Shown here: positions 1 to 5,453 of the stretch, in pieces
Layout of the letters: each line of letters opens with the position of its first letter
How positions within the stretch are numbered: position 1 is the first letter of the stretch
Assembly: GCA_030950545.1 (NCBI GenBank)
Contig: JAUZRJ010000147.1
Span: 1-37,361 of the forward strand
Source: Aquificota bacterium
GTDB taxonomy: Bacteria > Aquificota > Aquificia > Aquificales > Aquificaceae
Reading direction: 5' to 3'
DNA: 37,361 nt
The notes under the pieces: generated by a model
Seen by the model: the letters and a program-made list of their open reading frames with translations, nothing else
Databases searched by the model: none
What the model was told of the DNA's origin: nothing
Made by a program: the position numbers and the translations under genes

Positions 1-294
1 CCGAGAAAGGCGAGGCCGTTTATAGGATGGTATTCAGGTGATCACATCACACTGGTCTTTCTGACAACAAGGCAAAAAAGTATACAGGTTAACACGGGGT
101 TCTGCAAGAAGTTATCTGAGAACTGCGGGTGGATAGAAGATGTGTGCTACGTGCTCGAGGACTGGAGGAGGAAAGGTGTATACAGATTTACGCTGAGGAG
201 GGAGCTTTTTAAAGATTACGTTTTCTGTGGAAGATGTGAGGACCTGGATTTTCTCGAGAAGCTGAAGGAAGTTACTTATGAGGGAGAAGATTGA
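1..294 (+). CDS. 5'-truncated ORF, C-terminal ~97 aa; weakly MazF/PemK-like protein, first gene visible of the Calp-like cassette
   Basis: Frame 1 is open from base 1 to TGA at 292-294 (PRKARPFIGWYSGDHITLVFLTTRQKSIQVNTGFCKKL...YVFCGRCEDLDFLEKLKEVTYEGED). The 'RP...GDHITLVFLTTR' start resembles the MazF/PemK beta-barrel. It overlaps the next start codon at 278. Not in the supplied ORF track because it has no start in the window. Confidence 0.6.
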   Translation, partial: PRKARPFIGWYSGDHITLVFLTTRQKSIQVNTGFCKKLSENCGWIEDVCYVLEDWRRKGVYRFTLRRELFKDYVFCGRCEDLDFLEKLKEVTYEGED

Positions 295-916
295 AGCCCT
301 CCTTAGCGGGAACGAGGAGGCGAGAAGGTTCTTCCTCGAGGAGATCAAAAAGGTCGCCCTCCAGAGTAAAGTGGAGCACTTTCTGAGAACACGCCTGGGG
401 GACGATTACGCGGAGGAAGTCCTCTCAGATCTGATACTGAAATTCATAATCATGAGGGAAGTCCTCCTCAAGAAGGAAAGGATAACAAGAAGCTACGTCA
501 GAAAGGTTATAAGGTCATGTCTCGTGGACACGGTAAACAGGGAGGGTAAGATCAGCACCGTGAGTATAAACAATCCCGTCAACCCTCACGAGGAGGGATG
601 GGTTGAGAGCTTTGAGGACCTCCTCGGTAAGGAGGAAGATAAGGACCTGAGAATTCAGGCGGAAGAGCTCTTTGATGTGATCATGTCTTTACTTTCCGAG
701 AAGGACAAAGACACCCTGTGTTATTACCTTAATACGGAGATCTACGACAGGAATGTAGAGGTAAAAGGCATGTCAAAGGACGCCCTCTACAAGAGATGGG
801 AGAGGCTAAAGAAGAAGATAAGGGAGAAATTGACCTTCGTGCCTACCGAAGAGGAGTTCAGAATCTTTGCGGAGAGGTTCCTGTCAGAAGTGTGTGCTGA
901 AAGGGGTTATAAGTAA
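278..916 (+). CDS. calpS: ECF-like RNA polymerase sigma factor (CalpS-like)
   Basis: 212 aa. Sigma region 2-like segment (DDYAEEVLSDLILKFI...SYVRKVIRSCLVDTVNREGK) and region 4-like HTH (LLSEKDKDTLCYYL...MSKDALYKRWERLKKKIREKL). Directly upstream of the CalpT-like and Lon-SAVED genes. Confidence 0.75.
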   Translation: MREKIEALLSGNEEARRFFLEEIKKVALQSKVEHFLRTRLGDDYAEEVLSDLILKFIIMREVLLKKERITRSYVRKVIRSCLVDTVNREGKISTVSINNPVNPHEEGWVESFEDLLGKEEDKDLRIQAEELFDVIMSLLSEKDKDTLCYYLNTEIYDRNVEVKGMSKDALYKRWERLKKKIREKLTFVPTEEEFRIFAERFLSEVCAERGYK

Positions 917-1692
917 TGGGCGAAGATATGCAGAAGATCCTGTACGAAAACTTCATCAAAAGTTTGGGGGACGAAGTTCTGGAGGTTCCAGCTCCCAAAC
1001 CCCCTGAAGTTGGACAGGTAAGGCTCTACCTCATGACCCCGCCTGAGTATATCCTGATAACGGAAAAGGTGCACGAAGACCTCTTTAAGATAGTTCCCCT
1101 GACCTCATACGTTCAGCTTGCCATCACCAACAAGTACCCTCCCACGATAAGGTGGCGGGGCTTCCTGCTCGTTCCCCTTCCCTTTGAAGTTTATGCAGAA
1201 AAGACCCTGCTTGAGAAGCACTCAGAAGCGGTCTTTAAGGTGTCCGAAGGCCTGGAAAAGATAGCGGAGTACGTGAAAACTGTCAGGATCAGGGGGATCG
1301 GGAAGTGGAGGGAGAAGTTTATAGAAAAGAACATCGAAAGGTGGAAGGACATAAACCTTTCGAGCATAGTAGCGTCCGTGATCCGGGCGGAAGAAGGAAA
1401 AACTATAGTGATCAGGTTCCGAGCCCCGGTCAGTGAAGACCGGGAAACGAAACTCGCAGCCAGATCTCAAGGAGCCTTCAGGGGGAGTAACTGGATCGGG
1501 GTCCTGGAGGAGGGAAGGCTTTATATGTACTTATCTGAAGATCTGGTGGGAAGGCGTATAAGGATAAGCTACAGGGGAGAGGTCCTCTACGAGGGTCCCG
1601 CCTCTCTCAGGTTCGTTGTTGAGGATGTGCCCGAGACGGTCACAGACCTGGAGGAGGGTCTGAATGTTCAGGTTCTCGGAGATAGATCCTGA
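916..1692 (+). CDS. calpT: CalpT-like protein: MazF-like N-terminal half plus C-terminal extension; predicted protease substrate/anti-sigma
   Basis: 258 aa. N-terminal EVGQVRLYLMTPPEYILITEKVHEDLFKIVPLTSYVQLAITNKY...WRGFLLVPLPF resembles the MazF/PemK barrel (G-x-V...PLTS). Size and position between sigma factor and Lon-SAVED match CalpT. TAATG overlap with the upstream gene. Confidence 0.6.
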   Translation: MGEDMQKILYENFIKSLGDEVLEVPAPKPPEVGQVRLYLMTPPEYILITEKVHEDLFKIVPLTSYVQLAITNKYPPTIRWRGFLLVPLPFEVYAEKTLLEKHSEAVFKVSEGLEKIAEYVKTVRIRGIGKWREKFIEKNIERWKDINLSSIVASVIRAEEGKTIVIRFRAPVSEDRETKLAARSQGAFRGSNWIGVLEEGRLYMYLSEDLVGRRIRISYRGEVLYEGPASLRFVVEDVPETVTDLEEGLNVQVLGDRS

Positions 1693-3094
1693 CCACCTCA
1701 TCAAGCTTTTGAAGGCGGGTAAGCTCGACGAGGATCTTGATGACCTGTTCTCCCAGTTCTGGGACCTTTCCCCTCGTGTTCAGTTCGAGGTCGTAAAGTA
1801 CGTAAAGGAAAGATCGGTCTCACCTTCGGTCGGTGTGCTCGAGGAAACCTTTAAGGCGGACCACGAAGACATCAGGAAGTTCCTGAACCTGCCCCACAGG
1901 GAGTTCTTCGTTCCCGTGGTTGATCCGGGAGGCAGGGGTCTTCTGGTGAGGGGTCTATCTGTTAGGGGGACTCAAGCCCTTATAACTAACCAGAGGCATC
2001 TCCTGAGGAGTATGGAGGTTATAAAGAGCTTCCTCGGGGAAGGGTTTGCCCTGTTCTTCGATAGTGATATGGAAGGGGAGAGCTATATGCTACCCGCAGC
2101 GGTCAGTCTCTACATAGAAAGACCGCCACCGGATGCGGTCTTCACGGGAAGGATAGACGAGAAGGGAAACATATACGAGGTAAACGGGCTTCCTAAAAAG
2201 AGAAAAGCGGCTCAGAACCAGGGGCTCAGGCTCGTTGAACCTTCACGTTTGAGCAGGCTTCAGGACCTGAAGGACTGGTGTGATGCGAGAGCTTACCACG
2301 TTCCCGTATTCATAACTAACAGCCTGCGGGGCTACGAGGGAGAGCTCGGGAGCTTTTACGCGGGTGTCCGTATGGAGGATGTGGACCTCGTGCTGAACCA
2401 CCTCGAGGTCATAAACGGCATAGACAGAAAGGACCTCGTCCTCAGAACGGGACAGCTTTCGCCCGAAAGGGCGGTCTGGATAAAAGCGGTTACCGACTTC
2501 TACGCTCTGCTGAAGAGGCTGGAGAGAAGCCTCCACGGGAGGGAGATACCCCACATCGGGATAAAGGGACCCGCCAGCCTTGCCTTCTCCCTGGGTTCTG
2601 CCTACGGTAGCCAGAAGCCCTTCGTTTTCTACCATTTTCAGGACAGCACCTACCACCCCATAGAGGTGAAGAACGTCCGTTTTCTTAAAGAACGGGTGAA
2701 AAGCTACGAACACATAGAAGCCGAAATCCTGCCCGGTGGTGACCTGCTGGTGATCGTCCTCTCCATGGCCCACCACGATCCAGAAAGCGCGGTGATAGAG
2801 TTCACAAGGGATAAGAACCCTACCTATCTAGTCCTCAGACACAGGAGGACCGGAAACCTACCGCCCGAGGAGATGGTCCTCACCGCGAGGGAGTGTGCGA
2901 GCAAGATCCAGGATATGAGATCCGAGAAAAATTACAGGGAGTTTCACTTCTTCTTCGCCTGTCCTGTTCCTGTTGCCTTTATGGTCGGTGTCGCCTTCGG
3001 TTTCTACAACGACGGCTATGTTTATCAGTACTACGGGGACAGATACGAGAAAGTTGTGAGCTTCAGGGACATCAGGAACTTGAGGGAGGGGTGA
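1664..3094 (+). CDS. calpL: CRISPR-associated Lon protease with C-terminal SAVED domain (CalpL-like)
   Basis: 476 aa. Lon S16 signature DMEGESYMLPAAVSLYIERPPPDAVFTGRIDEKGNIYEVNGLPKKRKAA (S140/K179 align with the Lon Ser/Lys dyad). C-terminal half has two SAVED-like repeats: HIGIKGPASLAFSLGSAYGSQKPFVFYHF and HFFFACPVPVAFMVGVAFGFYNDGYVYQYYGDRYEKV. Confidence 0.85.
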   Translation: MFRFSEIDPDHLIKLLKAGKLDEDLDDLFSQFWDLSPRVQFEVVKYVKERSVSPSVGVLEETFKADHEDIRKFLNLPHREFFVPVVDPGGRGLLVRGLSVRGTQALITNQRHLLRSMEVIKSFLGEGFALFFDSDMEGESYMLPAAVSLYIERPPPDAVFTGRIDEKGNIYEVNGLPKKRKAAQNQGLRLVEPSRLSRLQDLKDWCDARAYHVPVFITNSLRGYEGELGSFYAGVRMEDVDLVLNHLEVINGIDRKDLVLRTGQLSPERAVWIKAVTDFYALLKRLERSLHGREIPHIGIKGPASLAFSLGSAYGSQKPFVFYHFQDSTYHPIEVKNVRFLKERVKSYEHIEAEILPGGDLLVIVLSMAHHDPESAVIEFTRDKNPTYLVLRHRRTGNLPPEEMVLTARECASKIQDMRSEKNYREFHFFFACPVPVAFMVGVAFGFYNDGYVYQYYGDRYEKVVSFRDIRNLREG

Positions 3095-3157: not shown

Positions 3158-3373
3158 ATGGATCTCAGGTCTGTAGATCTCGGGCAGGAGTTCACGGTCA
3201 AGTCCCTAAAAGCCAGGGACCTACCCCTTGTCAGGAAGCTGACCGCCATGGGGCTCAGGGAAGGGAAGAAGGCCAGGGTCCTCCTTAAGAACGGAAGGGT
3301 CATACTCCTCAGACTTGACAACTCGAGGCTTATAATAGACAGGGACCTTGCGGGCTACATCGAGGTCGCCTGA
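3158..3373 (+). CDS. feoA: FeoA ferrous iron transport protein
   Basis: 71 aa SH3-like FeoA (LTAMGLREGKKARVLLKNGRVILLRLDNSRLIIDRDLAGYIEV), immediately upstream of feoB. Confidence 0.93.
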   Translation: MDLRSVDLGQEFTVKSLKARDLPLVRKLTAMGLREGKKARVLLKNGRVILLRLDNSRLIIDRDLAGYIEVA

Positions 3374-3377
3374 GTTC

Positions 3378-3392
3378 TGAGATCGGATCTCA
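3378..3392. promoter_or_regulatory. candidate operator dyad between feoA and feoB
   Basis: Perfect inverted repeat TGAGATC-G-GATCTCA, same half-site as 3118-3132. Confidence 0.45.
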
Positions 3393-3398
3393 AATTTT

Positions 3399-5453
3399 AT
3401 GAAGACCATCTTAGTTGCGGTAGCGGGAAACCCGAACGTAGGTAAGACCACCATCCTGAACCACATAGCGGGAACAGATCTTAAGGTGGGAAACTGGCCC
3501 GGCGTCACGGTGGAAAAGAAGGAAGCCCTCGTAGAGTTCATGGGTTACAGGATACACCTTGTAGACCTTCCGGGGGTTTACACCTTAGATCCCGTTGCTG
3601 AAGACGAAAGGATAGCGGTAAGTTTTCTTGAAAAACAGAACCCGGACGTCATACTGAACATCGTGGAGACCCCCAATCTGGAGAGGAACCTTTTTCTAAC
3701 CACGGAGCTGTTAGAACTCGGCAGGCCCACGGTCCTCGTCCTTAACATGTGGGACGAGGCGATAAAGCAGGGCATAGAGGTTGACACGGACAGGATGAAA
3801 GAGCTTTTAAACGTGGAGGTTGTAAAGACCGTGGGAAGAACGGGAGAGGGTGTTGAGGACATACTCCCCGCAGTAGTCAGGGTTTACGAGGAGGGGAGGG
3901 TCCCAAAGGTGACCTACTCACCCGAGATCGAGGGAGTTCTATCACAGCTCTCGGGTGAGGGTTCAAGCAAGAGGGAGCTGATAGCCATTCTCGAAAACAC
4001 TCCTGAGAAGAGAAAACCCGTTGAGGAGAAGGCAGGAAAGCCCCTGAGGGAGATACTTGACGACGAGAGGTACGCCTTCGTCCATGGTCTCTCCGCGGAG
4101 GTCATGAAGAAGCGGAGCATATCGAGGAAGGACGTTACCGATGCCCTGGACAGGGTCGTCCTTCACCCCCTTCTGGGTTTCCCGGTTTTCGTGGGTGTTG
4201 TGTACATAACCTTCAAGATCGCCTTTGACTTCTCCACACCCTTTGTTGACTGGGTGGACAGCTTCATGGTTGATTTCCTCGGACCGTCCGCAGGGCTTGT
4301 TCTCAAAGCCCTTAACTTTCCCGACTGGTTCGTCAGGTTCTTTTCCGAAGCGGTTGTGGGAGGTGTGGGCTTCGTCCTCACCTTTGTCCCCCTAATAGGC
4401 ACTCTTTATCTCCTTATAACCCTTCTTGAGATGTCGGGCTACATCCCGAGGGTCGCCTTCCTCATGGACAGGTTTATGCACAGGCTCGGCCTCCACGGAA
4501 GGAGTGTTATACCTCTCATAATGGGTTTCGGATGTAACGTCCCCGCCATAATAGCTACGAGAACTATGGAATCAACGAGGGACAAGATTCTGGTAACCAT
4601 GATGATCCCTTTCATGAGCTGTCCCGCCAGGCTGGTCGTCTTTGCCTTTTTTGTCTCGATCTTCTTCAGGGAGAACCCCGCACTTGTCATAACCTTCCTC
4701 TACCTGCTCGGAATTCTTGTCGCTGTTGCGACGGCCTTCTTTCTGAGGAAGGCCGTCTACAGGGGTTCCCTGTCCCACTTCGTTATGGAGCTACCCCCCT
4801 ACAGGTTTCCCTCCTTCAAGACCCTCATCACCATAACCTGGGTTCACCTGAAGGATTTCCTCTACAGGGCCGGGACCCTCATATTCGGGGCGTCCGTGTT
4901 TATATGGCTTCTTCTTAACACACCGCCAGGTGCTGGGAACATATCCGAAAGCCTGGCGGGAAAGATAGGGAAGGTTCTCGTTCCCGTCTTTGAGCCGATA
5001 GGCATAGACAACTGGAAGGCGACCACATCGCTCATACCCGCATTCCTTGCCAGGGAGATAGTCATCAGCTCCATGGGGACCATATACACAGCGGAGGAGG
5101 CGGGGAAGATCGGAGAGTTCAACCCTAAGGAAGAGTTCCTCTCCCAGATGGAGTCCCTCGGGACCGCGGTCAGGGACGCCTTTGTCTCCCTGGTGACCCT
5201 GAGGATAGCCGCCTTTGAGGTTGAGGAGGAAGAGGAGGGTCTTAAAGATCTTATACGTAAGGACTTCACCCCTTCTTCCGCTCTTTCCTTTATGACCTTC
5301 ATACTGATATACACCTCCTGCCTCGGGACCTTTGCGGTCCTGGTCAGGGAGATAGGGAGAAAAAGAGCTGTGCTGTTCCTGGGCTACAGCTTCGTCGCAG
5401 CCTGGACGGTCTCCTTTGTGGTTTACAGGGTCTCCAGCCTGGTATTACAATAA
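3399..5453 (+). CDS. feoB: Ferrous iron transporter FeoB
   Basis: 684 aa. G-domain GNPNVGKTTILN, VDLPGVYTL, LNMWD; multiple TM helices including IMGFGCNVPAI. Confidence 0.97.
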   Translation: MKTILVAVAGNPNVGKTTILNHIAGTDLKVGNWPGVTVEKKEALVEFMGYRIHLVDLPGVYTLDPVAEDERIAVSFLEKQNPDVILNIVETPNLERNLFLTTELLELGRPTVLVLNMWDEAIKQGIEVDTDRMKELLNVEVVKTVGRTGEGVEDILPAVVRVYEEGRVPKVTYSPEIEGVLSQLSGEGSSKRELIAILENTPEKRKPVEEKAGKPLREILDDERYAFVHGLSAEVMKKRSISRKDVTDALDRVVLHPLLGFPVFVGVVYITFKIAFDFSTPFVDWVDSFMVDFLGPSAGLVLKALNFPDWFVRFFSEAVVGGVGFVLTFVPLIGTLYLLITLLEMSGYIPRVAFLMDRFMHRLGLHGRSVIPLIMGFGCNVPAIIATRTMESTRDKILVTMMIPFMSCPARLVVFAFFVSIFFRENPALVITFLYLLGILVAVATAFFLRKAVYRGSLSHFVMELPPYRFPSFKTLITITWVHLKDFLYRAGTLIFGASVFIWLLLNTPPGAGNISESLAGKIGKVLVPVFEPIGIDNWKATTSLIPAFLAREIVISSMGTIYTAEEAGKIGEFNPKEEFLSQMESLGTAVRDAFVSLVTLRIAAFEVEEEEEGLKDLIRKDFTPSSALSFMTFILIYTSCLGTFAVLVREIGRKRAVLFLGYSFVAAWTVSFVVYRVSSLVLQ

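Follow-up and report, generated by a model that had tools for sequence, protein, structure and literature searches.

The gene cassette at the start of the window (the whole stretch of 37,361 nucleotides analysed, which is the entire contig C54 of a 1.53 Mb assembly in 163 contigs, 99.7% complete) is best read as a Calp system, an arm of type III CRISPR immunity whose output is transcriptional, most likely partnered with a type III-A (Csm) complex in its own genome. We assign this joint reading of identity, mechanism and partner a probability of about 0.85. The Calp assignment, put forward in the first-pass annotation, is supported by the homology of all three proteins to CalpS, CalpT and CalpL and by the conservation of the catalytic residues. 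We regard it as sound that the cassette represents a further copy of an already known system, ordinary in its order and parts, and that what goes beyond the known is a fourth gene, here called upX, and a fused variant of CalpL found in relatives.

Three open reading frames with overlapping ends lie on the + strand, as had been claimed: CalpS at 278-916 (212 aa), CalpT at 916-1692 (258 aa) and CalpL at 1664-3094 (476 aa), with overlaps of 1 nt between the first two and 29 nt between the last two. Because homologues occur in the same order and on the same strand in dozens of Aquificota genomes, these are not chance reading frames. Among the 136 Aquificota species genomes compared, at least 36 loci have upX, CalpS, CalpT and CalpL in this order on the same strand. 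One locus with this order (L067) encodes a CalpL identical to that of PDB 7qda over residues 2-496 and is thus the characterised Sulfurihydrogenibium locus. The window has the same gene order as the published system and is therefore not unusual in this respect, although the order had earlier been singled out for study. The suggestion of a possibly undescribed instance holds for the locus, which is a new copy; the system is published, and its three proteins are all already modelled by PADLOC. Directly 3' of CalpL, at 3158-5453, lie feoA (FeoA domain) and a 684-aa feoB-like gene, which belong to unrelated iron uptake and give no sign of cassette membership.

The SAVED domain of CalpL (residues 282-466, 2507-3061, + strand) is recognized by Pfam (PF18145, E=5e-23), while the Lon part was without a match in the Pfam search. 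Residues 24-464 align with the Sulfurihydrogenibium CalpL of PDB 7qda and 8b0u (E=8e-24), and the PADLOC Lon-SAVED models span the protein end to end (E=2e-141), which upholds the earlier call of a Lon-SAVED fusion. S152 and K193 of the Sulfurihydrogenibium protein, which we take to be the protease dyad, map to S140 (codon 2081-2083) and K179 (codon 2198-2200) of the window CalpL; both are invariant across the 21 Aquificota CalpL proteins aligned. The SAVED positions associated with cA4 and ring-nuclease action are likewise all present, H345, R361, K364 and H392 of the Sulfurihydrogenibium protein (SsCalpL) corresponding to H324, R339, K342 and H371. These four positions have been studied by mutation (PMC11417357), and the equivalent arginine and histidine are essential to ring-nuclease action in CcaCalpL and AcrIII-2 (PMC12751052). 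Searches of viral contigs and of plasmids returned no CalpL relatives, and among phages the sole relative was Thermocrinis Great Boiling Spring virus (TGBSV).

CalpT, by homology an anti-sigma factor and protease substrate, is matched by the PADLOC models Unk_02 (E=2e-53) and CRISPR-T (E=6e-19). A family profile that includes the characterised CalpT matches the CalpT10 chain of 8b0u (E=1.4e-15), which places a CalpT10-like C-terminal domain at 1459-1689. The start of that chain aligns adjacent to A181/A182 of the window CalpT (1456-1461), and both alanines are invariant in nine close relatives. The cut is accordingly predicted in this region, near A181/A182. The AlphaFold2 model of CalpT is of low confidence, with the N-terminal part below pLDDT 50 and the CalpT10-like part modelled best; in view of the poor N-terminal model, the MazF likeness of CalpT is taken from the literature (PMC9704534). 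Departures from the usual gene structure were seen at a few loci: CalpT and CalpL form a single 640-aa frame in a Thermocrinis MAG (L105:6737-8659), which is either a real fusion or a sequencing error, and CalpS (L050:7646-8313) and CalpT (L113:107-1284) are each found in two frames, through decay or sequencing error.

Taken alone, the 212-aa protein gives a weak call of an ECF-like sigma factor (TIGR02937, E=0.0014, aligned to positions 13-165 of the 165 in the profile); the call is good at the level of the family, where 16 of the 30 members match the ECF sigma model (best 1.9e-7); the PADLOC HTH model matches with E=5e-61. Both points on which the first-pass annotation had let its reading depend, a Lon-SAVED protein and a sigma factor, thus came out in its favour, since the 476-aa protein is homologous to Lon-SAVED proteins and the match of the 212-aa protein extends over the whole ECF model.

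The mechanism would follow that described for Calp (PMC11417357 and PMC12751052). Its biochemical steps are carried over from the work on the Sulfurihydrogenibium and Cloacimonas CalpL proteins, to which the present analysis contributes homology, conserved residues, gene order and the presence of csm1. The Cas10 complex would sense viral RNA and make cyclic tetra-adenylate (cA4), upon which CalpL would bind cA4 with its SAVED domain and oligomerise. The Ser140-Lys179 Lon protease would then cleave CalpT near A181/A182, so that the N-terminal CalpT fragment leaves the complex with its bound CalpS. This fragment would be degraded, and CalpS would direct RNA polymerase to its regulon. The SAVED domain would also destroy cA4 and in this way reset the switch.

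The partner of the cassette has to be judged from an assembly in which no RAMP, Cmr2 or Cas1 gene and no complete type III complex was found. The absence of RAMP or Cas1 from a 99.7% complete assembly raises the alternative that the signal-making complex has been lost and that the cassette is an orphan, inactive or decaying. CalpL being followed by iron-uptake genes rather than cmr genes points the same way, as do four further Aquificota genomes that have CalpL without a RAMP match. However, a csm1 gene at the end of another contig of the same genome (C163, L122:16239-18153) runs off that end in the right direction, cut before its GGDD, and it is this finding that demotes orphan status. CRISPR repeats (CTTTCAACTCCACACGG...) stand at the edges of two more contigs (C37:36-116 and C134:92-107), which indicates that most of the array and of its cas genes is missing from the assembly. 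The window, too, begins within upX; the truncated csm1, the repeats and this start all point to a gap in the assembly. The catalytic residues are intact, as are the four reading frames of the cassette. The closest relative, G020, whose CalpL is 72-73% identical and split over two contigs, also has unrelated, non-CRISPR genes after CalpL, and there the cassette lies downstream of csm1-csm5 and a CRISPR-associated TIGR02221 gene. We thus consider it unlikely that the cassette is an orphan. The ends of C163 (csm1) and C54 (inside upX) probably flank a break in a single III-A-Calp operon arranged as in G020; the two csm1 proteins are 32% identical, and the one found here may belong to a different III-A locus. 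In three other relatives (G009, G023 and G063) the cassette lies upstream of cmr genes, and the Cas10 proteins of relatives with csm or cmr genes beside the cassette retain GGDD. Matches to the 'Cas10' model PF22335 in the own genome were rejected, as the contigs concerned carry genes for GGDEF diguanylate cyclases and the matches are without GGDD. One CRISPR spacer of the own genome had no exact match in viral contigs.

Two other readings concern the signal and the output of the cassette. SAVED domains occur widely among CBASS effectors, and this general background is what speaks for a cassette answering a CBASS nucleotide rather than a CRISPR one. As the own genome gave no match for a SMODS-type nucleotidyltransferase (PF18144) and csm or cmr genes adjoin the cassette in the relatives inspected, we give this origin of the signal hardly any credence. 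An output by toxicity, in which the MazF-like N-terminal part of CalpT, once released by CalpL, would cleave RNA and arrest growth, corresponds to the earliest published reading, where CalpT23 is a MazF-like toxin (PMC9704534). Later work has CalpT as an anti-sigma factor (PMC11417357), and CalpS directly adjoins CalpT in nearly all loci, which makes a toxin output very improbable. The preferred reading remains a Calp system with transcriptional output, driven by cA4 that most likely comes from a III-A complex.

The fourth gene modifies the earlier picture of a cassette of three genes. The frame at 1-294 (+ strand) is open at the contig edge, which cuts its 5' end, and overlaps CalpS by 17 nt; it encodes the C-terminal 97 aa of upX, a small cysteine-containing protein, covering profile positions 51-147 of 148. 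No second piece was found in the own assembly. In the roughly 60 related genomes compared, the gene nearly always accompanies the cassette; it lies directly upstream of CalpS, mostly with an overlap, at 36 or more Aquificota loci, among them the characterised Sulfurihydrogenibium one. Among 28 upX relatives, an Arg-Pro pair is invariant and four cysteines are conserved, the last two forming a CxxC motif, which suggests metal binding. AlphaFold2 gives a confident model for a full-length relative (pLDDT 89, pTM 0.86), for which Foldseek returned nothing significant against the PDB and a viral library. A kinship to CalpT as a paralogue was considered and rejected (hhalign probability 0.2%). The PADLOC model C3a162 (PDLC01080, listed as of unknown function) matches 6 of the 28 relatives, with a best E of 2e-60, and does not match the window upX. 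The literature searched yielded no published role for upX and no discussion of the upX gene of the Sulfurihydrogenibium locus.

The distribution of upX follows that of the cassette, 51 of the 59 genomes with upX having a CalpL match. Among the other eight, G010 has a fused CalpL adjoining, and in several upX and CalpS are neighbours where a contig ends; for G002, G028 and G059 no cassette partner was seen in the sequence read. It is probable that upX is a working fourth component. We lean towards the further view that Calp is a four-component system whose upX partner was overlooked earlier and would control CalpS or CalpT or the connection of these to Cas10. Tandem double copies of upX occur in L046, L105 and L110, and a second CalpT-CalpL pair, with no CalpS or upX found adjoining, in genome G123 (L072:8246-10637). 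A CalpS-type promoter upstream of upX is not claimed, because the best dyads occur at 5 loci against 3-4 in shuffles and the set contains near-identical genomes. By eye, L041, L050, L064, L090 and L088 show a TATAAT-like box some 20-40 nt ahead of the start of upX, which hints at a housekeeping promoter rather than CalpS autoregulation.

At eight loci (L056-L060, L106, L116 and L117), upX-CalpS-CalpT is followed by a variant Lon-SAVED protein, 560-570 aa long where complete; six of the variants lie at L056:7729-9426, L057:8951-10642, L058:336-2018, L059:2293-3975, L060:1655-3358 and L106:9341-11053. All four variants scanned carry at the C-terminus a PF08960 domain (STIV_B116-like), presumably of the AcrIII-1/Crn2 family (DUF1874). 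In the six variants aligned, the protease dyad is retained, the position of SsCalpL H345 is Q or E, that of K364 is P, and H392 is deleted. It looks from these sequences as if the built-in timer has been lost and a fused ring nuclease stands in its place. Both forms of CalpL are present in some genomes (G063, G058 and G061). A Csx1-Crn2 fusion is known (PMC12409355), and no report of a CalpL-Crn2 fusion was found in the literature searched.

The relatives of the window are Aquificota, named records with a match to its CalpL being Aquificaceae, Aquificales, Thermocrinis and Aquifex. The CalpL search gave matches in 63 of the 136 genomes; the count is 60 when G014 and G060, which have the Crn2-fused form only, and G013, with an end fragment, are excluded. 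RAMP genes are present in 55 of these 60 genomes as compared to 36 of the 76 others (Fisher p=2e-8, an optimistic value since the genomes are related). In a survey of type III loci, CalpL was found in 17 of 1113 (PMC11229360). Set against these surveyed loci, its presence in 60 of 136 species genomes makes the Aquificota the place for the study of Calp. Calp is among the few CRISPR outputs that alter transcription rather than destroy molecules; no regulon of CalpS is given in the literature searched. Both upX, as a conserved gene, and the fusions of CalpL to Crn2 supply new parts that can be tested.

Among the known systems, the window resembles CalpL/T/S of Sulfurihydrogenibium sp. YO3AOP1 (7qda, 8b0u) in its three proteins, in the order with upX first and in the catalytic and cA4 residues. 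It differs in sequence, CalpL being in the 24% identity range to distant homologues, and in its CRISPR neighbours, which are probably III-A here, unlike those of the Sulfurihydrogenibium locus and of III-B loci. The PADLOC models HTH (PDLC01153), Unk_02 (PDLC01140), CRISPR-T (PDLC01048) and CRISPR-Lon (PDLC01050) cover the CalpS, CalpT and CalpL of the window. CcaCalpL (SAVED-Lon) of Candidatus Cloacimonas acidaminovorans (PDB 9eyi-9eyk) shares the Lon-SAVED architecture (E=5e-9) but is more distant in sequence, the match being confined to the stretch 129-459. AcrIII-2/vSAVED of Thermocrinis Great Boiling Spring virus (9r8s), published as derived from host CalpL, has a SAVED domain 42% identical to that of the window with the same ring-nuclease residues, but it is a viral anti-CRISPR consisting of SAVED alone, without the protease. 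CalpS matches the sigma factor of the type III-E CRISPR system Craspase (NF041236) weakly, with E=0.021, far below the model cut-off. Craspase is like Calp in that a protease controls a sigma factor, whereas the protease is an RNA-guided caspase in the former and a cyclic-nucleotide-activated Lon protease in the latter.
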